Source of the DNA: Verrucomicrobiota bacterium
GTDB lineage: Bacteria > Verrucomicrobiota > Verrucomicrobiia > Opitutales > UBA953
DNA: 64,000 bases
Direction of reading: 5' to 3'
NCBI GenBank assembly: GCA_015061905.1
Contig: SUVQ01000003.1
Span: forward strand, 1 to 64,000
The position numbers were made by a program, and so were the translations under genes. Positions 5,054-58,995 of the stretch are shown here, piece by piece (positions within the stretch are counted from its first letter, which is position 1; the number at the start of each line of letters is the position of its first letter). The notes under the pieces are model-generated. The model was not told where the DNA came from. It worked only from the letters and a program-made list of their open reading frames with translations, and did no database searches.

Positions 5054-6370
5054 TCAGGTGCGCGGCAAAATTTTGTCTTGTAGGGCGGAATCCGTTCCCG
5101 TTCCCGAAAGTGCGGCGAGCACTTCTCCGGCAAGGTAACACGAGCCGGCGACGACGACAGTTTCGCCGTCAGGCGTGGCAATCGCACATTCGTTCGGGCG
5201 CGGGAACAGGGCGGAGACGGAAGTTCTGAAAACCGGAGCTTTAAAATCCGGCGGGAGGCATTGTTCCATTTCCTCAAATGTGCAGGCGCGTTCCTGATCC
5301 GGGCGCACGAAATGAATTGCCGCCGCGTATTTTGCGAACACGGCAATGAGCGGTTTTGCCCGTTCCGCGCCGAGAACACCGGTGATAATTTGCGGACGCG
5401 TTCCCGTTTTTTCAAAAAGCGTTGCCAGGGAGCGGTCGATGGCGGCGGCGCCTTCCGCATTATGGGCAACGTCGAGAATGAGCGTGCGTCCGTCTGCGAG
5501 AGTGATTTTTTCCCAGCGCGCGCGCCAGTCGATTTTTAGAAGGGCGTTCCTCGCTTTTTGTTCGTCAAAGGTTTTACCCGTTTTTTCAAAAAATATTTTT
5601 GCGGCAAGAATTGCCGTTGCGGCGTTCCCGCGCTGATGTTCGCCGAAAAGATTGGTTTTCGGAAAGCAATTCGTATCCGCTTTTCCTTTACAAAAAATTT
5701 CCCGGACGGAAAAAACCGGGGCTCGGCGGGTTCGGGCGACCGCCCGGATTTCCGTTTCCGCTTCTTCCGGAAGCAACCCGATTACGACGGGAACGCCGTC
5801 TTTGATGATGCCCGCTTTTTCCCGGGCAATTTCCGCGAGGGAGTTTCCTAAAAATTCCGTGTGATCCGTGCCGATGGACGTAATGACGCTTACTTCGGGA
5901 ACGACGATGTTGGTGGCGTCCAAACGCCCGCCCAAGCCCGTTTCGATAACGGCGGAGGCGCAGCGTTCCCGCGCGAACCGCAGGAACGCCATCGCCGTCA
6001 TCAATTCAAAGAAAGAAGGGAAATCCTCGTCTCCGGGTTTGCCGAAGGCATTTGCCGCAGCGTAGAGTTTTTCCGCTTCATCGCAAATAGTTTGGTCTGA
6101 AAGCGGAACGCCGTTTACGCGAATGCGCTCGCCGAGCTTGAGCAGGTGCGGCGACGTGTAAAGCCCGTTTCGAAGCCCGTGCGCGCGCAGAACACCGTCG
6201 AGCATCGCCGAGGAGGAGCCTTTGCCGTTGGTGCCGGCGACGTGTATGAGCGGGAACGCGGTTTGCGGCGAGCCGATCGCCTTCGCGAGCAGGCGCATCC
6301 GGTCGATTCCGAATTTACTGCCGTGATTTCGGAGCGCGCATAAGCGCGAAATTTTTTCCGCAGAGGTCAT
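5054..6370 (-). CDS. folC: Folylpolyglutamate/dihydrofolate synthase FolC
   Basis: 438 residues. Adds glutamate to folate (and in many bacteria to dihydropteroate) using ATP. VAGTNGKGSS (44-53) is the ATP-binding P-loop of Mur-ligase-like enzymes. ETGLGGRLDATN (143-154), the family signature, is followed by the metal/ATP motif with HTEFLG and IAREKAGI (about 170-188). The C-terminal ligase domain contains LILDVAHNAEG. Length is normal. It has several octamer copies, including an overlapping pair near its end (about 5094). Confidence 0.95.
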   Translation of the reverse strand: MTSAEKISRLCALRNHGSKFGIDRMRLLAKAIGSPQTAFPLIHVAGTNGKGSSSAMLDGVLRAHGLRNGLYTSPHLLKLGERIRVNGVPLSDQTICDEAEKLYAAANAFGKPGDEDFPSFFELMTAMAFLRFARERCASAVIETGLGGRLDATNIVVPEVSVITSIGTDHTEFLGNSLAEIAREKAGIIKDGVPVVIGLLPEEAETEIRAVARTRRAPVFSVREIFCKGKADTNCFPKTNLFGEHQRGNAATAILAAKIFFEKTGKTFDEQKARNALLKIDWRARWEKITLADGRTLILDVAHNAEGAAAIDRSLATLFEKTGTRPQIITGVLGAERAKPLIAVFAKYAAAIHFVRPDQERACTFEEMEQCLPPDFKAPVFRTSVSALFPRPNECAIATPDGETVVVAGSCYLAGEVLAALSGTGTDSALQDKILPRT

Positions 6371-10989: not shown

Positions 10990-11280
10990 AAAGGGATGGT
11001 TGGATCTCTCGAATTCGTGGCAGCGTGAGGGGTTTGGAATATTTTCTCAGCGAATTTTTATCGTTATGTTCCTGTTTTCCAGAGATTGGCGACAAAAAGC
11101 TGTTTTGTGTGCTGTTGCGGATGAGATTAATCGAGGCGATTTTCGGTATTCTTTCGGATACAGAATTTGTGATTCTTCCAATCGGCTATCATCCCCTGTC
11201 AGGGAATTCGCGTGGGGCGTTCTACAGGCGCGTATGCGGTGGAAACAATTTTTATTCAGGAGAAAATAGTAAGAATTTTT
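10990..11280. other. Non-coding or decayed stretch between polymerase fragment and polymerase
   Basis: About 290 bp follow the fragment. Short open frames exist but none has a start, Shine-Dalgarno or recognisable protein signature; it looks like decayed coding sequence of unknown origin. It holds no octamer copy. Confidence 0.45.
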
Positions 11281-12786
11281 ATGATACGATTAGCACAAGT
11301 GGTTCTATTAGCGATTATCGCGTCTTCTGTATTCTTGCCGTGTCCTATCGCGACATCAGGCACGGTTGTTTTGTCTGCAACGTTACTCTTCTTTATAACA
11401 ACATTGCTTGATGGGCGTATTTCTCTCATCGCGGTATTTGTCGCTGCGTTTGCGTATATGGTCCCTCCTGAAGCTATTTTGTTTGGAGAGGAGTTGTCGG
11501 TAAAATGGGGGGTAGACCATGTAGTTGTGGGCTGGCGTGTCCTTGTTCTTTCTTTTGTCGCGGTGTGTATCGGATTTTTACTTTTTAGGAGAAGTTCTTT
11601 GAAAAATACACATTCGGGAAGAGCGGAACTCTTTTCCGGGGCTTTTCAGAAATCAAAGCTCATATTTGGAGGAATTACGGTATTCCTCTGTGTTCTTTTT
11701 TCTCCAATGATTATTTATGGAATGACAACGGGAAGAGGAAGCGCTTCTCTTTTCAATCCGGAGGATGGTGGAGGATTATTGTTTAATGTCGGGCCGGGGG
11801 GGTATTTTCTTGCGTCACTTTGTTATGCCGTTTGCAGTTTCTGGGGATATTATTTCTCAAAACAAGGGAATCGAGCAGAGTTCCTGTTTAAAGCGATAAT
11901 CTATTCGCTCCCAATCCTCCTCATCGGAGTCGCGTCAGGCACACGCTATATGCTTTGCTTTATGTTGGCGTGCCTATTTCTTCCCTGGGTTTATCAGCTA
12001 AATATAAAAAAATTAAAATGGATAGGTGTTGGTGCTGTTTTTGCGATAGTTCTTTTTTCTGCGATGAAAAATTCACGGAATTCCGGATTTGATTTATCGA
12101 CAGCTTTTAATGCGGAAAGTTCAGCAGGAACTCTAATTGAAAGGATTGTCTCTAACGGTTCTCCTGAAGGGTTGATTCGCAATATGGCAATGATTGATCT
12201 TTGGACGGAAACACACTCTCATACATATGGGAAATCCATTGGATTTTTAGGAATCTTTTGGATTCCTCGAGTTATTTGGAATGATAAGCCAGTACAACTT
12301 GATTATTGGCTTATTCGGGAATACGAAAGCGGATTCGGAGGAGGGCATTCGACTGCCTCATCGTTTTGCGGAGAGTTGTTCATGGATTTTGGATATTTTT
12401 GTATTCTCATATGTTTCTTTCTTGGAGGAATAATGGCGAAAATGGATTGCTTTATCGAAAAAAGGTTAATAGTTGGCGGCTTTGTTGCGACTGCGCTTTC
12501 CGGCGTGATGTTAGGATGGGCGTTTTTTATGACACGCTCAATCTTGACTGCTTCATATCCATTGGTTTTAGGGCTTCCTGTGATTTGGTTTTTGAACAAA
12601 GCGGCTGTTAGAGAATTACCCCCCCCCCCGATCGTTGCAATCGGGGAATGCTGTGAGGCACTAATCGCTTGCCTAAAAAAGAAAGTATGCTTCTCGTCGG
12701 TAGACACGATTGCCTGTATAGGGCTGCGGACCTTTCCCTTCCTTCAAGAAAATACGAAGGTCCGGACAAAGGGAGGTGTCGCATGA
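11281..12786 (+). CDS. Wzy-like polysaccharide polymerase 1
   Basis: 501 residues from the ATG at 11281 (upstream in-frame sequence reads like remnant). At least ten hydrophobic helices, a large loop after about residue 240 and AT-rich codon use are typical of Wzy/O-antigen polymerases, which join repeat units in the periplasm; the family is so diverse that the call rests on topology and context. A C11 tract (12619-12629) begins at codon 447; the present frame stays open and ends in an ATGA overlap with polymerase 2. One base fewer or more gives early stops. A G7 tract is at 11796-11802. No octamer copies. Confidence 0.72.
   Translation: MIRLAQVVLLAIIASSVFLPCPIATSGTVVLSATLLFFITTLLDGRISLIAVFVAAFAYMVPPEAILFGEELSVKWGVDHVVVGWRVLVLSFVAVCIGFLLFRRSSLKNTHSGRAELFSGAFQKSKLIFGGITVFLCVLFSPMIIYGMTTGRGSASLFNPEDGGGLLFNVGPGGYFLASLCYAVCSFWGYYFSKQGNRAEFLFKAIIYSLPILLIGVASGTRYMLCFMLACLFLPWVYQLNIKKLKWIGVGAVFAIVLFSAMKNSRNSGFDLSTAFNAESSAGTLIERIVSNGSPEGLIRNMAMIDLWTETHSHTYGKSIGFLGIFWIPRVIWNDKPVQLDYWLIREYESGFGGGHSTASSFCGELFMDFGYFCILICFFLGGIMAKMDCFIEKRLIVGGFVATALSGVMLGWAFFMTRSILTASYPLVLGLPVIWFLNKAAVRELPPPPIVAIGECCEALIACLKKKVCFSSVDTIACIGLRTFPFLQENTKVRTKGGVA
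12619..12629 (+). repeat. Poly-C tract, 11 nt, in polymerase 1
   Basis: Eleven C in the coding sequence encode PPPP near the C-terminus. Right after it, CCCCGAT and ATCGGGG can pair as a 7-bp hairpin. Length change would replace the last ~50 residues by short tails. Confidence 0.9.
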
Positions 12787-16862: not shown

Positions 16863-17075
16863 TTAACTTGCCGACGCGAGGAGTATGGAGGGTGCAGTAC
16901 TGTATTACGTAGGGATTTTAACTTGCTGTTAACTTGCCGATGTGGGGAGTATGGAAGGTGTAGTACTGTATTATGTAGGGATTTTAACTTGCTGTTAACT
17001 TGCCGATGTGGGGAGTATGGAAGGTGTAGTACTGTATTATGTAGGGATTTTAACTTGCTGTTAACTTGCAGGTGT
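16863..17075 (+). repeat. 66-bp tandem repeat, three units plus a partial one
   Basis: Units start at 16863, 16929 and 16995, with a partial one at 17061. Each begins TTAACTTGCCGA and ends TTTTAACTTGCTG. Units 2 and 3 are identical; unit 1 has a few differences. The period is a multiple of three and keeps one frame open, but there is no start or Shine-Dalgarno. It lies between the AlbA gene and the intact glycosyltransferase, in the latter's leader. Confidence 0.92.
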
Positions 17076-17133
17076 AGGGAGAGGCTAATTTGCGTTTTAT
17101 CAACCCTTGTAGTGATTCCGTTAAGTTTTTTTT

Positions 17134-27361: not shown

Positions 27362-29167
27362 ATGCAGGCGATAATCTTAGCGGCAGGAATGGGCAAACGC
27401 TTGGGCGAACTGACAAGCGGGAACACAAAATGCATGGTCAAGGTAAACGGGATTCCGTTAATCGATCGGATGCTTTCTCAGCTTTCAAAATTGAATCTTT
27501 CGAAAATCGTTTTAGTCGTCGGATATCAGGCGGAAAACCTGAAAGCACACGTCGGGAACGCAATCGCGGGAACGCCGATTGTTTACGTCGAAAATCCGAT
27601 TTACGACAAGACGAACAATATTTATTCGCTTGCCCTCGCCAAGGATTTCCTCGTTAAGGAAGACACGCTTTTGCTCGAATCTGATCTCATCGTCGAAGAT
27701 GCCGTTCTCAATAAAATTCTCGAAAATCCGTTCCCGAATCTTGCCTTGGTTTCCAAGTATGAAACATGGATGGACGGCACAATGGTGCGCATGAACGATG
27801 ATTGCGACATCGTGAGTTTCATCCCGAAATCTGCATTCAAATATTCGGAAACGGACACCTACTACAAGACGGTAAACATTTACAAATTCAGCGCGGAGTT
27901 TTCCCGCTCGCATTACGTTCCGTTCCTCGAAGCTTACACCAAGGCACTCGGGAACAACGAATACTATGAGCAGGTTCTTCGCGTTATCACGATGCTCGAC
28001 AAAGTTGAGCTCAAGGCGCTTCCGCTCGACGGTGAAAACTGGTATGAAATCGACGACGTGCAGGATTTGGATATCGCCGAAGCGATTTTTGCCGAAAACG
28101 ATCAACGCCTGAAAAAATACTTCTGCCGCTACGGCGGATACTGGCGGTTCCCGCGCTTGCTGGATTTTTGCTATTTGGTAAATCCTTACTTCCCGTCTCC
28201 GCGCATGCGTGATGAATTGCGGGCAAATTTCGACGTGCTTTTGGCGGAATATCCGTCCGGCATGGGCGTGAATTCCCTGCTCGCAGGGAAATATTTCGGC
28301 GTTCGCCAAAGTTCAATCGTCGTCGGCAACGGCGCGGCGGAACTCATTAAGAGTCTCATGGAATCGTTCCCGGGAAAACTCGGCGTAACGTTCCCGACCT
28401 TTGAAGAATATCCGAATCGCCGCGAGAAATCAGAGGTGGAAGTTTTTGTTCCCGCCAATCCTGATTTTTCCTACTCGGCGGAAGATTTAAAAAACTTTTT
28501 TGCCGACAAAGGCATTTCTGCGCTTTTGCTCGTTAATCCGGACAATCCGTCGGGAAATTTTATTTCAAAAAGCGAAATCCTCGACCTTGCCGACTGGGCT
28601 CGGGAACGCAAAATCCGCCTCGTCGTCGATGAGTCTTTTGTCGATTTCGCAATCGGCGACGACAATACCTTGCTACGAAACGATATTCTCGACGCATTCC
28701 CGGAACTCATCGTCATGAAATCTATTTCGAAATCCTACGGCGTTCCCGGACTGCGTTTGGGTGTCTTGGCATCGTCTGACGAAGCGTTGATTTCTCGCAT
28801 GAAGAAAGATGTCGCTATATGGAATATCAATTCGTTTGCCGAGTTTTACATGCAGATTTTCGGAAAATACGAAGGAGACTATCGCAAGGCTTGCAAAAAG
28901 TTTATCTCCGAGCGGGAACGTTTTCAAAAACGGCTTTCAGAAATTCCGTTCCTGCGCGTAATCCCGTCGCAGGCGAATTATTTCCTTTGCGAAATTACGG
29001 AAAGATTTACGGCGGGAGAGTTGACGGCAAAGCTTTTAAACGAGGCGGACATTCTCATCAAAGATTGCTCAACGAAAGCGGCTTTTGACGGGAAAAACTA
29101 CATTCGCCTTGCCGTTCGCGATACCGCAGATAACGACAAACTCGTCGACACCTTGAAAGGGTTTTAA
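27362..29167 (+). CDS. Nucleotidyltransferase::class I aminotransferase fusion
   Basis: 601 residues. Domain 1 (about 1-240) is a sugar-phosphate/LicC-like nucleotidyltransferase: LAAGMGKRL (6-14) with conserved Lys23, ESDLIVED as metal-binding region, and EIDDVQDLDIAEAI near its end. Domain 2 (about 250-601) is a fold-type I PLP enzyme of the HisC/CobD group: NPDNPSGNF, DESFVDF, and SISKSYGVPGLRLG with PLP-binding Lys457. CobD-like enzymes can be aminotransferases or phosphoamino-acid decarboxylases, so the fusion may make and activate a phospho-amine or phospho-amino acid as its CDP form. It resembles PntC-type fusions in plan, but PntC has a class V transaminase. LicD at 31229 is the probable user of the product. 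Confidence 0.85.
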   Translation: MQAIILAAGMGKRLGELTSGNTKCMVKVNGIPLIDRMLSQLSKLNLSKIVLVVGYQAENLKAHVGNAIAGTPIVYVENPIYDKTNNIYSLALAKDFLVKEDTLLLESDLIVEDAVLNKILENPFPNLALVSKYETWMDGTMVRMNDDCDIVSFIPKSAFKYSETDTYYKTVNIYKFSAEFSRSHYVPFLEAYTKALGNNEYYEQVLRVITMLDKVELKALPLDGENWYEIDDVQDLDIAEAIFAENDQRLKKYFCRYGGYWRFPRLLDFCYLVNPYFPSPRMRDELRANFDVLLAEYPSGMGVNSLLAGKYFGVRQSSIVVGNGAAELIKSLMESFPGKLGVTFPTFEEYPNRREKSEVEVFVPANPDFSYSAEDLKNFFADKGISALLLVNPDNPSGNFISKSEILDLADWARERKIRLVVDESFVDFAIGDDNTLLRNDILDAFPELIVMKSISKSYGVPGLRLGVLASSDEALISRMKKDVAIWNINSFAEFYMQIFGKYEGDYRKACKKFISERERFQKRLSEIPFLRVIPSQANYFLCEITERFTAGELTAKLLNEADILIKDCSTKAAFDGKNYIRLAVRDTADNDKLVDTLKGF

Positions 29168-29170
29168 ACA

Positions 29171-30214
29171 ATGGAAATTCCCGGAAAAACACTCTGTATT
29201 TGCGGTGGAGGTTCGCTCGGTCATGTAATCGCGGGAACGGCGGCGGCGCGCGGATTCTGCGTGAACTTGCTTTCCGGACGGGCAGAACAATGGCACGACG
29301 AAATTACGATTCATGCCTGCGACGGAAAAGTTTTTTCCGGAAATCTTTCCAAAAAATCTGCCTCGGCAAGCGACGTTATTCCGGACGCGGATTTCGTTCT
29401 ACTCTGCGTTCCCGGGTATTTGATTCGTGAGACGCTTGAAAAAGTGGCACCCCATCTTCACACGGGAACGCCTGTCGGTTCCGTCGTTTCGAGTTCCGGA
29501 TTTTTCTTTGCGGCGCAAGAAGTTTTGCCTGCGGGAACGCCGCTTTTCGGATTCCAGCGTGTTCCCTATATCGCACGTGTGTCCGAATACGGGAAATCGG
29601 CGGATTTGCTTGGATATAAGAACGAAATTCGTTTGGCGACAAAAGATTTTCCGTCTGCCGACAGCCAAGAAGCATTTCGCCAAAAAATTGAAAAACTTTT
29701 GGATACGCCGACTGCGCTTCTTAAATCATTTTGGGATGCGGCTCTTACAAACTCTAATCCGCTTCTTCATCCGTGCCGCCTTTACGGCATGTGGAACGAT
29801 TGGGACGGAAAAACACCTTACGCGCAGCACACACTTTTTTACGAAGATTGGGATGATTTCTCATCGGAAATTCTTATCGCTGCAGACGAAGAATTTTTTG
29901 CGCTTTTGAAAAAACTTCCCGTAACGCCGGGCGCAATTCCGCGTCTGCCGGATTACTACGAATGCGGGAACGCATCGGAGCTGACACGTAAGCTGAAAAG
30001 CATTCCCGCTTTCCGGAAAATTCGCGCGCCGATGCTTGCTGTTCCCGGCGGATTTATCCCCGACGTGAAGAACCGCTACTTTACCGAAGACATTCCCTAC
30101 GGAATGAAAATTATCAAACAACTTGCACAACAAAATAACGTGGAAACACCGACGATAAATAGAGTGCTTAATTGGGGGCTTCAATTTTTTCCCCCCCCCC
30201 CATTTCGAAAATAA
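29171..30214 (+). CDS. Octopine/nopaline (opine) dehydrogenase-like protein
   Basis: 347 residues. Rossmann start LCICGGGSLGHVIAG (8-22) with GxGxxG-like motif, and a C-terminal NAD/NADP octopine dehydrogenase domain with LLHPCRLYGMW and the substrate-site GAIPRLPDYYE region. Opine dehydrogenases reductively condense a 2-oxo acid with an amino-acid amine. It ends in a C11 tract (30191-30201) just before the stop. One extra C would extend the protein by about 28 residues to a stop that overlaps the ATG of the next gene (ATGA), so the present form may be a phase variant. Follows the fusion gene after 3 bp. Confidence 0.82.
   Translation: MEIPGKTLCICGGGSLGHVIAGTAAARGFCVNLLSGRAEQWHDEITIHACDGKVFSGNLSKKSASASDVIPDADFVLLCVPGYLIRETLEKVAPHLHTGTPVGSVVSSSGFFFAAQEVLPAGTPLFGFQRVPYIARVSEYGKSADLLGYKNEIRLATKDFPSADSQEAFRQKIEKLLDTPTALLKSFWDAALTNSNPLLHPCRLYGMWNDWDGKTPYAQHTLFYEDWDDFSSEILIAADEEFFALLKKLPVTPGAIPRLPDYYECGNASELTRKLKSIPAFRKIRAPMLAVPGGFIPDVKNRYFTEDIPYGMKIIKQLAQQNNVETPTINRVLNWGLQFFPPPPFRK
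30191..30201 (+). repeat. Poly-C tract, 11 nt, at the end of the opine dehydrogenase gene
   Basis: Eleven C encoding PPPP, four codons before the stop. C12 (or C9) reads on without stops to TGA at 30295-30297, overlapping the next start codon; C10 ends two codons later than now. Confidence 0.92.
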
Positions 30215-30293
30215 AAAGTAATGCGATACGGCTATTTGCAGTTCATAGGCTTTACCGCGACGCGTCCTTTACGCTTGAGGAAAGGAGCGCGGC

Positions 30294-31232
30294 ATGAAGC
30301 TTATCGATTTTTCGGAAATAGCGGCGTTAAAAATTTCGCCGAAGGATTGTTTCGCGTGGGTGAAAGATGCGTTTTTGATCAAGCCGAAATCGCTTCTGCC
30401 GCCGAAAATCAGCACCAAGCAGGAGGGGAATGTTTTCTTTAATACAATGCCGTGTCTGATTCCGCAGATTGAACGCTTCGGCGTGAAAGAAGTTTCCCGC
30501 TTCCCGAATCGCGTTCCCGCACTGAAAAGCGATTTGATGCTTTATGATGCCAAGAGCGGAGAGCTTCTGTCCGTTATGGACGCGACTTGGATTACCGCGA
30601 TGCGCACCGGCGCCGTTGCGGCTCTTGCCGTTAAGACATTTCGCAGAAAAGACGCGAAAATTTACTCGTTTGTCGGCTTAGGAAATACGGCTCGGGCAAC
30701 GTTACTTTGCTTGCTTGAAAATACGGATACGCAAGAAAGACAGACGATTCGCCTTCTAAAATACAAAGGGCAGGAAAAACTTTTCGCAGAACGATTTTCA
30801 GGCTACGGGAACGTGTGTTTCGAATTTGTCGATTCGATGCGGGAGCTGATTGTCGGTGCGGATGTCGTTGTTTCTTGCGTGACGGCGTTCGATTCTCCCG
30901 TCGCTAAGGACGAATGGTTTAAGGAAGGCGTGCTCGTCGTTCCCGTGCATACGAGAGGATTTCAAAACTGCGATTTGTTTTTTGACAAAGTTTTTGCCGA
31001 CGATCGCGGGCATGTGGAAGGTTTTAAGTATTTTTCAAAATTTAAACAATTCGGAGAGCTTTCGGACGTGCTTCTCGGAAAAATTCCCGGCCGCGAATCC
31101 GAACGGGAACGTATCTTGGCTTACAACATAGGTATCGCTCTCCATGACGTTTATTTCGCGTCAAAAATCTACGAGCGTTCCCGCGCAGAAGAACACAATT
31201 TAATCACAAAACAGGAAAAATTTTGGGTATGA
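30294..31232 (+). CDS. Ornithine cyclodeaminase/mu-crystallin family protein
   Basis: 312 residues. Family features: KEVSRFPNRVPALKSDLMLYD (about 65-85, in parts), SVMDATWITAMRTGA (93-107), NAD-binding FVGLGNTARA (126-135), and DVVVSCVTAFDSPV. Members deaminate and cyclise ornithine or act as opine- or imino-acid reductases (for example SbnB). Adjacent to the opine dehydrogenase-like gene, a role in making an unusual amino acid or opine is likely. Shine-Dalgarno GAAAGGAG upstream. Its stop overlaps the LicD start (ATGA). Confidence 0.87.
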   Translation: MKLIDFSEIAALKISPKDCFAWVKDAFLIKPKSLLPPKISTKQEGNVFFNTMPCLIPQIERFGVKEVSRFPNRVPALKSDLMLYDAKSGELLSVMDATWITAMRTGAVAALAVKTFRRKDAKIYSFVGLGNTARATLLCLLENTDTQERQTIRLLKYKGQEKLFAERFSGYGNVCFEFVDSMRELIVGADVVVSCVTAFDSPVAKDEWFKEGVLVVPVHTRGFQNCDLFFDKVFADDRGHVEGFKYFSKFKQFGELSDVLLGKIPGRESERERILAYNIGIALHDVYFASKIYERSRAEEHNLITKQEKFWV

Positions 31233-32047
31233 GAGAAATAACACACGAAGAACTGAAACAAATTCAGCTCGGAATCTTGGACAAAGTTCACGATTTCTGC
31301 GAAAAAAACGGAATTACCTATTTCCTTTCGAGCGGAACTCTTATCGGTGCCGTGCGTCATAAGGGCTACATCCCTTGGGACGACGATCTCGACCTCTACA
31401 TGCCGCGCTCCGATTACGATAAATTCATCAAACTGTTTTCCGCCAACTCCCCGGAACACACAAAACTCCTCTCCCTCGAAACCGATAAAAAGTACTATTA
31501 TGCGTTTGCAAAGGTTATAGATCTTCGAACGGAAATGATAGAGCCGTCCTTGCCCGAAAAAATAGGAGTTTTCATTGATATATTCCCGTTGGAGAATGTT
31601 CCGTCTGGGAATTTTGCATGTTTGGTGTGGTATTGGATATGCTTGTTCCTCATTCAAGCACAAGCAAGTGTGTGCCTTTCTCAAACACGGAACTGGATAT
31701 GGCTTGTCAGATCTCGAACCTCACTAACGACTATGATAAAAGCTGTTCTATTTCCATTCTTGTGGCTATTCCCGATAGATTTGTTTGGTAAGCTGTATGG
31801 GATTTTTGTGAGGTTAATTCCACCTAGCACATATGTCTACAATATGAGTGCAGGAATAGGAATACACGGGCGTTTTCGCAACTCTGTCGTTGAGCGTTCG
31901 GTCGATATTGAATTTGAGGGAAAACTCTATAAGACAATGCATGGCTTTCGAGAGTATCTTTATGTGACTTATGGCGATTTTTCTGTATTGCCCCCACCGG
32001 AGAAAAGAGTGTTTGGGCATGGCTTTCCTGCGTGGTGGAAGAGCTAG
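31229..32047 (+). CDS. LicD family phosphotransferase
   Basis: 272 residues from the ATG at 31229 overlapping the previous stop. LicD signature: YFLSSGTLIGAVRHKGYIPW (31-50) and WDDDLDLYM with D51, D52, D53 and D55. LicD enzymes move phosphocholine or a similar phospho-group from a CDP carrier to a sugar on the cell surface polymer. The CDP-carrier is probably made by the fusion enzyme at 27362, as in LicC/LicD pairs. A hydrophobic segment follows at about 130-150. AT-rich downstream half. Last gene of the presumed decoration module. Confidence 0.9.
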   Translation: MREITHEELKQIQLGILDKVHDFCEKNGITYFLSSGTLIGAVRHKGYIPWDDDLDLYMPRSDYDKFIKLFSANSPEHTKLLSLETDKKYYYAFAKVIDLRTEMIEPSLPEKIGVFIDIFPLENVPSGNFACLVWYWICLFLIQAQASVCLSQTRNWIWLVRSRTSLTTMIKAVLFPFLWLFPIDLFGKLYGIFVRLIPPSTYVYNMSAGIGIHGRFRNSVVERSVDIEFEGKLYKTMHGFREYLYVTYGDFSVLPPPEKRVFGHGFPAWWKS

Positions 32048-32087: not shown

Positions 32088-32096
32088 CCCCCCCCC
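32088..32096 (+). repeat. Poly-C tract, 9 nt, intergenic
   Basis: Nine C between the LicD stop and the glycosyltransferase at 32138. It is 41 nt upstream of that start, so its length could affect a promoter or leader but not a reading frame. Confidence 0.85.
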
Positions 32097-57720: not shown

Positions 57721-58995
57721 ATGTATAGTTTTCAGCGTATATTGGTGTTTTTGGTTGGAATAAGTATTCCTTTTAACCAAATTACCGCTTCATTCGCAGG
57801 GCGTAATTGGTCTCTGGGAATATTTTCCTGTTCATTATATTTCTTGTCTATTCTTCCGTGGATGGGGGGGGGCGTGAAGTTGGCGCGAGCTTACGGCTCT
57901 TCTATTTGGAACATTGTTTTTTGGGTAATTCTTTTGCAGATGATGAACATGCTCTATTTTGATGGAGGGACTTTTTACTATCCAGTATCACTGGTCATGT
58001 GCATCGTTTTTTTTATTACTCTGCTCTTACATGATTTATATGACCGTGGAGCTATTCGATGGGTGATTTATGGAATGGGCTTTGGAGGAATCCTTGTTGC
58101 TGTATTGTTTATGCTTGGCGTTGGTGTTTCAATAAATCCAAACTCAGGGAGATTAGAAATGTTTGGAGAAAACCCTAATGTTATGGGGATTTATATGGGG
58201 ATTTCTTCAATAGTCGTTTTAAATGAATTTATTCTAAGAGATGTGTTCCGTCTACGGGCAGGACGTTACGTGTTATTTGGAACTTATGTCCCAATGGTAT
58301 ACTTAATTTTGGAGACAGGCTCGCGTACGGCTTTCCTCATTTTTGCAGCATCGCTTATTGTAACAGTTGGCTTGTTGCCCGCAAAGACTAAGCTTTTGAA
58401 AGTTTTGTTGTTTTTTGGGGGGGTGATTATCTTGTTCTTTTTGGGAAAATGGTTTCTTGATTCAGATATCTCTGTTTTACGACGATTGACGGAAACTGTT
58501 GAGTCTAATGATACTTCGGGCCGCGACGAGCTGATTCTCGGGTATATGCCAACCATTCTGACGCATCCACTTGGCGTTGGACAAACAGGCGCAGTAGAGA
58601 TTTCCAGAAAAGTTTTTGGGGGAACTCATGTTTTTCTGGGTATTGAGTCGTGTTATAGCCCGCATAATGTCATTGTTGAAATTCTACTTTATACTGGTGT
58701 TTTGGGGCTTGTTCTTTGGGGCATGTTTTGGGCTAACGTCTCAAGGTGTGCATGGAGGGCATTTAAGGATGAAAAGAACCTGACACCAATTCTTTTACTT
58801 TTGCCTGTGGCGGCAGTTATTTTATCTGCACAGGTATTAACAGAAAAGTGGGCGTATATTATTTATGCATATATTCTCAGTGCTGGCCATTCCCCCAGTG
58901 CGATTCCTTTGAGAAAGAGGACATTGTTAAGACAAATTAGCTGTGTAAGAGACGGCCGTTGCTATAGTTCGTCACATGGGAGCAAGGGCCGTTAA
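57721..58995 (+). CDS. Wzy-like O-antigen polymerase/ligase
   Basis: 424 residues, about ten to eleven helices. GRLEMFGENPNVMGIYMGI (about 143-161) and ETGSRTAFLIFAASL are typical of the O-antigen ligase/polymerase (Wzy_C/PF04932) family, with a long periplasmic loop containing the ESCYSPHNVIVEIL site (His). A G9 tract (57864-57872) in codons 48-51 is early in the gene; loss of one G gives an immediate TGA. A second tract (G7) is at 58417-58423. A strong candidate for on/off phase variation of block III polymer. Confidence 0.85.
   Translation: MYSFQRILVFLVGISIPFNQITASFAGRNWSLGIFSCSLYFLSILPWMGGGVKLARAYGSSIWNIVFWVILLQMMNMLYFDGGTFYYPVSLVMCIVFFITLLLHDLYDRGAIRWVIYGMGFGGILVAVLFMLGVGVSINPNSGRLEMFGENPNVMGIYMGISSIVVLNEFILRDVFRLRAGRYVLFGTYVPMVYLILETGSRTAFLIFAASLIVTVGLLPAKTKLLKVLLFFGGVIILFFLGKWFLDSDISVLRRLTETVESNDTSGRDELILGYMPTILTHPLGVGQTGAVEISRKVFGGTHVFLGIESCYSPHNVIVEILLYTGVLGLVLWGMFWANVSRCAWRAFKDEKNLTPILLLLPVAAVILSAQVLTEKWAYIIYAYILSAGHSPSAIPLRKRTLLRQISCVRDGRCYSSSHGSKGR
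57864..57872 (+). repeat. Poly-G tract, 9 nt, early in the block III polymerase
   Basis: Encodes M-G-G-G at residues 48-51. G8 reads ATG GGG GGG GCG TGA, a direct stop. Confidence 0.9.

Follow-up and report, generated by a model that had tools for sequence, protein, structure and literature searches.

The locus and its poly-C tract

The window analysed here is a stretch of 64,000 nucleotides (contig C5) from the 2.08 Mb genome of a gut bacterium of the Verrucomicrobiota. The locus is a surface-polysaccharide operon read on the forward strand. It comprises a nucleotidyltransferase/aminotransferase fusion (27362..29167), an opine (octopine/nopaline-type) dehydrogenase, ODH (29171..30214, 347 aa as sequenced), a protein of the ornithine-cyclodeaminase/mu-crystallin family, OCD (30294..31232; Pfam OCD_Mu_crystall, 3e-33), a LicD-family phosphotransferase (31229..32047; Pfam LicD, 3e-38) and glycosyltransferases, the last assigned by sequence. 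The fusion gene lies directly upstream of ODH, an order shared with Akkermansia relatives. An earlier, sequence-only reading of this DNA had described start/stop coupling elsewhere in the operon. We found it between OCD and LicD, which overlap by ATGA at 31229, but not between the aminotransferase gene and ODH, which are separated by a 3-nt gap. Because of its ATGA overlap, LicD belongs to the same coupling chain as OCD. Beyond LicD, a C9 tract (32088-32096) lies between its stop (32047) and the next gene (32138), without effect on any frame. Elsewhere in the window, positions 16863-17081 hold a tandem repeat of 3.3 copies of a 66-bp unit, 94% alike.

The reading frame of ODH is set by a long homopolymer, a poly-C tract of 11 C (30191-30201, forward strand) that begins five residues after Trp335, an invariant residue ending the conserved domain. 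Its three phases give three different ends. Translated as sequenced (11C), ODH stops 13 nt beyond the tract with the C-terminus ...PPPPFRK, and with 10C it stops 20 nt beyond the tract with PPPHFENKK. With 12C, or equally 9C, and in this phase only, a linker of 31 codons plus TGA (30202..30297, forward strand) is open. The stop then lies 96 nt beyond the tract, and its TGA (30295-30297) overlaps the ATG of OCD at 30294. An overlap of upstream stop and downstream start is thus confined to the 12C/9C phase, and the stop of the sequenced phase lies 80 nt upstream of the OCD start. These phase translations bear out what the sequence-only reading had proposed, namely that C11 decides the end of ODH, that 12 or 9 C would add exactly 31 codons and the TGA/ATG overlap, and that the sequenced state is the uncoupled one.

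The length of a homopolymer in an assembly can be wrong by one. Viewed by itself, the open 12C frame is unremarkable, since the ODH linker stayed open in 21% of dinucleotide shuffles (P=0.21). The layout at ODH and OCD is significant because the whole arrangement recurs at other tracts of the genus.

The dehydrogenase appears complete before the tract

ODH matched Octopine_DH (PF02317, E 3e-32 in Pfam; 3c7a, 2e-31 in phmmer), and the best Foldseek match of its predicted structure was octopine dehydrogenase (3iqd/3c7d, TMq 0.83). By domain and fold it belongs to the octopine/nopaline dehydrogenase family, with a predicted opine-forming activity. In the AlphaFold model (mean pLDDT 92.5) the last helix spans residues 327-337, and the chain is disordered from residue 344, with residues 344-347 below 50.

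We compared 80 homologous loci. Short, non-fused homologues carry 5-15 residues after the conserved Trp, and ODH in the 11C phase carries 12. In 10 homologues ODH does not end at the position of the tract but continues as a fusion, with a LicD domain or longer, and most of the closest homologues (52-54% identity) are among these 10. A separate class has a long conserved tail (GKEYL...GKDI...IIQNFGI). We rejected the idea that 12C restores this tail; against a profile of the long tails, true members scored 36-72 bits and the 12C tail -2.5 bits, which does not exceed the scores of its shuffled versions. In a Verrucomicrobiota relative (L067) the gene reads ...TTC TCC CCA TTT CGG AAG AAA TAA, keeping P-F-R-K in the 11C frame of ODH.

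These comparisons bear on a conventional contingency locus, in which the natural ODH would end at the ATGA and the 11C form would be a C-terminally altered (OFF) enzyme. One phase does reach the kind of ATGA overlap that is typical of operons, and the 12C tail, 40 aa after the Trp, has the same length as the tails of the long-tailed homologues. However, the nearest homologues are either short or joined to LicD at this position, the 12C tail scores at the level of shuffled sequence, L067 retains PFRK, and the corresponding tail of a sister NeuD gene shows no codon constraint (see below). We therefore regard this reading as unlikely. We found no support for the longer C-terminus being the ancestral or functional form of ODH. 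Its homologues stop close to where the sequenced frame does, the fold is predicted to be complete before the tract, and none of the homologues has a tail like that of 12C; for the same reasons the 11C form of ODH is not broken. A frame shift here does not truncate or ablate the tract-bearing protein, as it does at classical coding-type loci, and the tract appears to sit behind a complete enzyme, as judged from homologue ends and the structural model. The 'off' phase proposed earlier would therefore concern the downstream gene, which stands as a candidate target, and not ODH.

The seven genus relatives contain no ODH orthologue, and an initial search of genomes and viral contigs that used ODH by itself gave no match. 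Bacteroidota supply the closest homologues, and ODH was likely acquired by horizontal transfer. In Prevotella/Bacteroidaceae relatives (L078-L081, L083, L084, L093, L094, L107 and L120) ODH and a LicD-like domain form one protein, and three of these fusions carry a further C-terminal region; the fusions thus link opine-type products to LicD transfer.

The layout recurs at other glycan genes of the genus

Tracts of at least 11 C/G are plentiful in this genome, and tracts of at least 9 C/G were found in all eight genus genomes (5 to 37 each; in G006 many fall at the ends of contigs, possibly as artefacts). Where a tract lies close to the 3' end of a gene and the following gene points the same way, one phase repeatedly ends on that next start, as ATGA or TAATG. 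The layout seen across the genus consists of a complete glycan gene, poly-C, a linker that one of the three phases leaves open, and the motif GAAAGGMNNNCSGC-ATGA at the next start. Genes with such junction tracts encode a NeuD-like acyltransferase (C10 phase, 4-5 genomes), an ATP-grasp protein, a hexapeptide acyltransferase, an SDR and others.

The linkers vary in length and sequence, and many end in the common motif GAAAGGMNNNCSGCATGA. At ODH and OCD the junction motif is GAAAGGAGCGCGGCATGA (30280..30297, forward strand), which holds the Shine-Dalgarno, a hairpin arm and the ATGA start/stop overlap. We found nine copies of the exact motif GAAAGGMNNNCSGCATGA in the eight genus genomes, every one downstream of poly-C, and none of the reversed control. 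Seven copies lie within 170 nt of the poly-C and two about 740 nt from it, at the ATP-grasp gene. The motif was absent from ATGA junctions without a tract. A role as a general ribosome-binding site was rejected within the genus, since copies occur only behind poly-C and other ATGA junctions lack them. A small number of variants of the string recur in a sister genus (g2), in genomes mostly without tracts.

All eight scored linkers were open in the coupling phase, with a shuffle product of about 3e-4; a ninth case, the SDR with its TAATG junction, was left out of the scoring. These results weigh on the simplest account, in which this is an ordinary short intergenic region whose third frame is open by luck and whose tract length is uncertain. 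For the ODH linker alone the probability of an open frame is high enough to allow this, homopolymers are error-prone, and an N gap follows another tract of this genome. Against this, the layout repeats at several genes and in several species, together with a motif found nowhere else in the genus, and the product for the eight linkers is small. Chance or assembly error is, in our judgement, quite unlikely.

The coupled-phase tails also raise the idea of a phase-variable degron, in which ends of the type ER(S/L/T)AA, like the tmRNA tag (...ALAA), would destabilise the upstream enzyme. The -AA end is recurrent among these tails and the tmRNA tag of this genome ends in ALAA. However, some coupled-phase tails end in -SA or -VA, and the Shine-Dalgarno, hairpin arm and ATGA account for the same bases, so that we hold a degron to be very unlikely. 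The tmRNA gene (L271, 1501-1883) encodes the tag GKNNTIAFERSNAFALAA, whose FERS resembles the ERS of the tails, probably by coincidence.

A second junction tract of the window, C11 at 12619..12629 (forward strand), is found late in a Wzy-like polymerase gene (11212-12786), close to its 3' end. Its sequenced phase is the coupled one, running 55 codons on to the ATGA at 12783, and this junction has no hairpin. Poly-G tracts inside domains (for example L218 and L208) look like a different class, resembling classical in-gene switches. A G9 tract at 57864-57872, about codon 48 of a Wzy_C/O-antigen ligase gene (57721-58995) that is open as sequenced, likewise looks like a classical in-gene contingency tract. 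In another genome, locus L261 (G006 C121) has a pair of modules whose linkers are similar. Behind each lies a mini-ORF of 25 codons (MTTNARTFSTTMPFVATTNERRVAA, then stop) that shares an ATGA with the following gene, so that coupling could take two routes.

A predicted hairpin encloses the downstream start

RNA folding predicted a hairpin over the Shine-Dalgarno and start codon of OCD (30249..30300, forward strand). Among 14 starts examined across the window, the OCD start was the most structured, with a predicted -20.7 kcal/mol over 60 nt, and the segment 30240-30310 folded at z -2.4, with 5 of 200 shuffles as good. The predicted structure thus gives OCD the occluded start expected of a translationally coupled gene.

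The same tendency was seen at the other junctions. Pairing at the start was 0.72 in 12 modules against 0.44 in 65 control starts drawn from the same loci (p=3e-5), and folding energy was -18.7 against -10.1 (p=1e-4). The modules are partly orthologous, so that some of their counts are not independent, and we chose these comparisons once the pattern had been noticed. The hairpins enclose the Shine-Dalgarno, usually in the loop, with the spacer and start codon paired. The idea that the Shine-Dalgarno itself is paired was rejected, as in most modules it lies in the loop and is more open than in controls. ODH-OCD is an exception, its Shine-Dalgarno being mostly paired, and here the pairing that encloses it is not significant alone, with 31% of shuffles equally strong. 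Two of the 12 modules have little or no hairpin (ATP-grasp in G000, and window position 12783). In the NeuD hairpin two pairs change on both sides with pairing kept, a hint of covariation among three orthologues that 60 of 500 shuffles also reach. With its good Shine-Dalgarno, the OCD start might also initiate independently.

Sister tracts differ in length, and a diverging tail keeps its frame

In the region of about 7.6 kb that holds the NeuD and ATP-grasp genes, G000 and G004 are 97-99% identical with three indels. Two of the three fall in tracts, C10 against C11 in NeuD and C12 against C14 in ATP-grasp, and across the orthologues the NeuD tract reads C10/C11/C10. These differences, which swap the coupled and uncoupled phases at both genes, suggest replication slippage at the tracts. 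The ATP-grasp (PylC-like) protein of G000 has its C12 at L044 7351-7362 and ends at 340 aa; the frame of its G004 orthologue, with C14 at L188 7109-7122, continues for about 250 codons to an ATGA overlap. The ORF in this long linker gave no Pfam match. Also in L044, at 5238-5395, an N gap stands beside C14/G8 and C15 runs where the G004 orthologue has a single C14, and the assembler probably broke on the tract.

Furthermore, the NeuD tails of G000 and G005 differ at 21 of 65 nt without an indel, the differences falling 10/6/5 by codon position, against 20/7/93 in the gene body. The tail has preserved its frame and length while its peptide has changed, and it evolves free of codon constraint.

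The frame kept in these diverging tails also speaks to action of the tract on the mRNA, for example as a C-rich Rho-binding site or as an sRNA target setting polarity. Poly-C RNA is a classic Rho ligand, and at most of the junction tracts it is the sense strand that carries the C. However, such action would leave unexplained both the preserved frame and the open phase to the ATGA with its common motif, and we judge it highly improbable.

A candidate switch of translational coupling

Taken together, we think it probable that C11 works as a slipped-strand contingency tract and thereby switches translational coupling from ODH to the next gene, with a predicted effect on expression. In this proposal ODH, which homologue ends and the predicted fold place as finished before the tract, would be made in every phase. 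With 12C or 9C, ribosomes would read on through the 31-codon linker, which encodes no conserved protein, and melt the hairpin occluding the OCD start. They would terminate at the ATGA and could reinitiate on OCD, the presumed switched gene, and then on LicD through the ATGA at 31229. With 11C (as sequenced), 8C or 14C, and with 10C or 13C, termination would fall 73-80 nt upstream of the OCD start and 28-35 nt short of the hairpin, and OCD and LicD are predicted to be low.

We lean, somewhat less firmly, towards the wider proposal that this is a modular switch used at several glycan junctions within one genus. Each module would place poly-C behind a complete gene, followed by an unconstrained open linker and a hairpin-hidden Shine-Dalgarno/ATGA. 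Slippage would then turn the downstream branch on or off, with the upstream enzyme made throughout.

If correct, slippage would switch a gene that has no tract of its own by controlling the arrival of the upstream ribosome, a distinct target of phase variation. Such a switch is easily overlooked, as annotation shows just an intact gene with a harmless C-terminal tail. The junctions provide a signature for searches, poly-C followed by GAAAGGMNNNCSGCATGA. The proposal would also suggest that these gut bacteria, a group little studied so far, switch the decoration of their surface glycans in a heritable way.

Comparison with known systems

Slipped-strand contingency loci and translational coupling are each already established; in GeneTack they form alternative classes (PMC3711429). 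In the open-access literature searched, which takes in few subscription papers, we found no description of a tract behind a complete gene that switches coupling. In Akkermansia muciniphila, homopolymers occur in capsule genes, including a (C)10 acyltransferase, and phase variation has been suggested (PMC3048395). These mononucleotide repeats are of the same class as the tracts here, and the portion of that paper considered describes no junction module. A scan of three Akkermansia-family genomes gave at most one similar case, and we rejected the view that their tracts form the same module.

The locus resembles the homopolymeric-tract contingency loci of Campylobacter, Helicobacter, Neisseria, Haemophilus and Bordetella in that a long G/C tract in surface-glycan genes sets the frame and in that its length varies between relatives, here at the sister tracts. 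Classical tracts lie inside the switched gene or its promoter, whereas here the tract comes after an upstream domain that is complete, and the gene that follows is the predicted target. In meningococcal siaD, slippage in a capsule gene gives phase variation with polarity, the tract lying inside siaD and translation being stopped early. The present locus would be alike in placing slippage in a surface-glycan operon, but siaD itself is truncated and the upstream product here is complete. With start/stop-overlap coupling to an occluded downstream start, the locus shares the ATGA overlap, a Shine-Dalgarno within the upstream frame and a predicted start hairpin. Known coupling of this kind is constitutive, whereas here a mutable tract would decide whether the upstream ribosome arrives.
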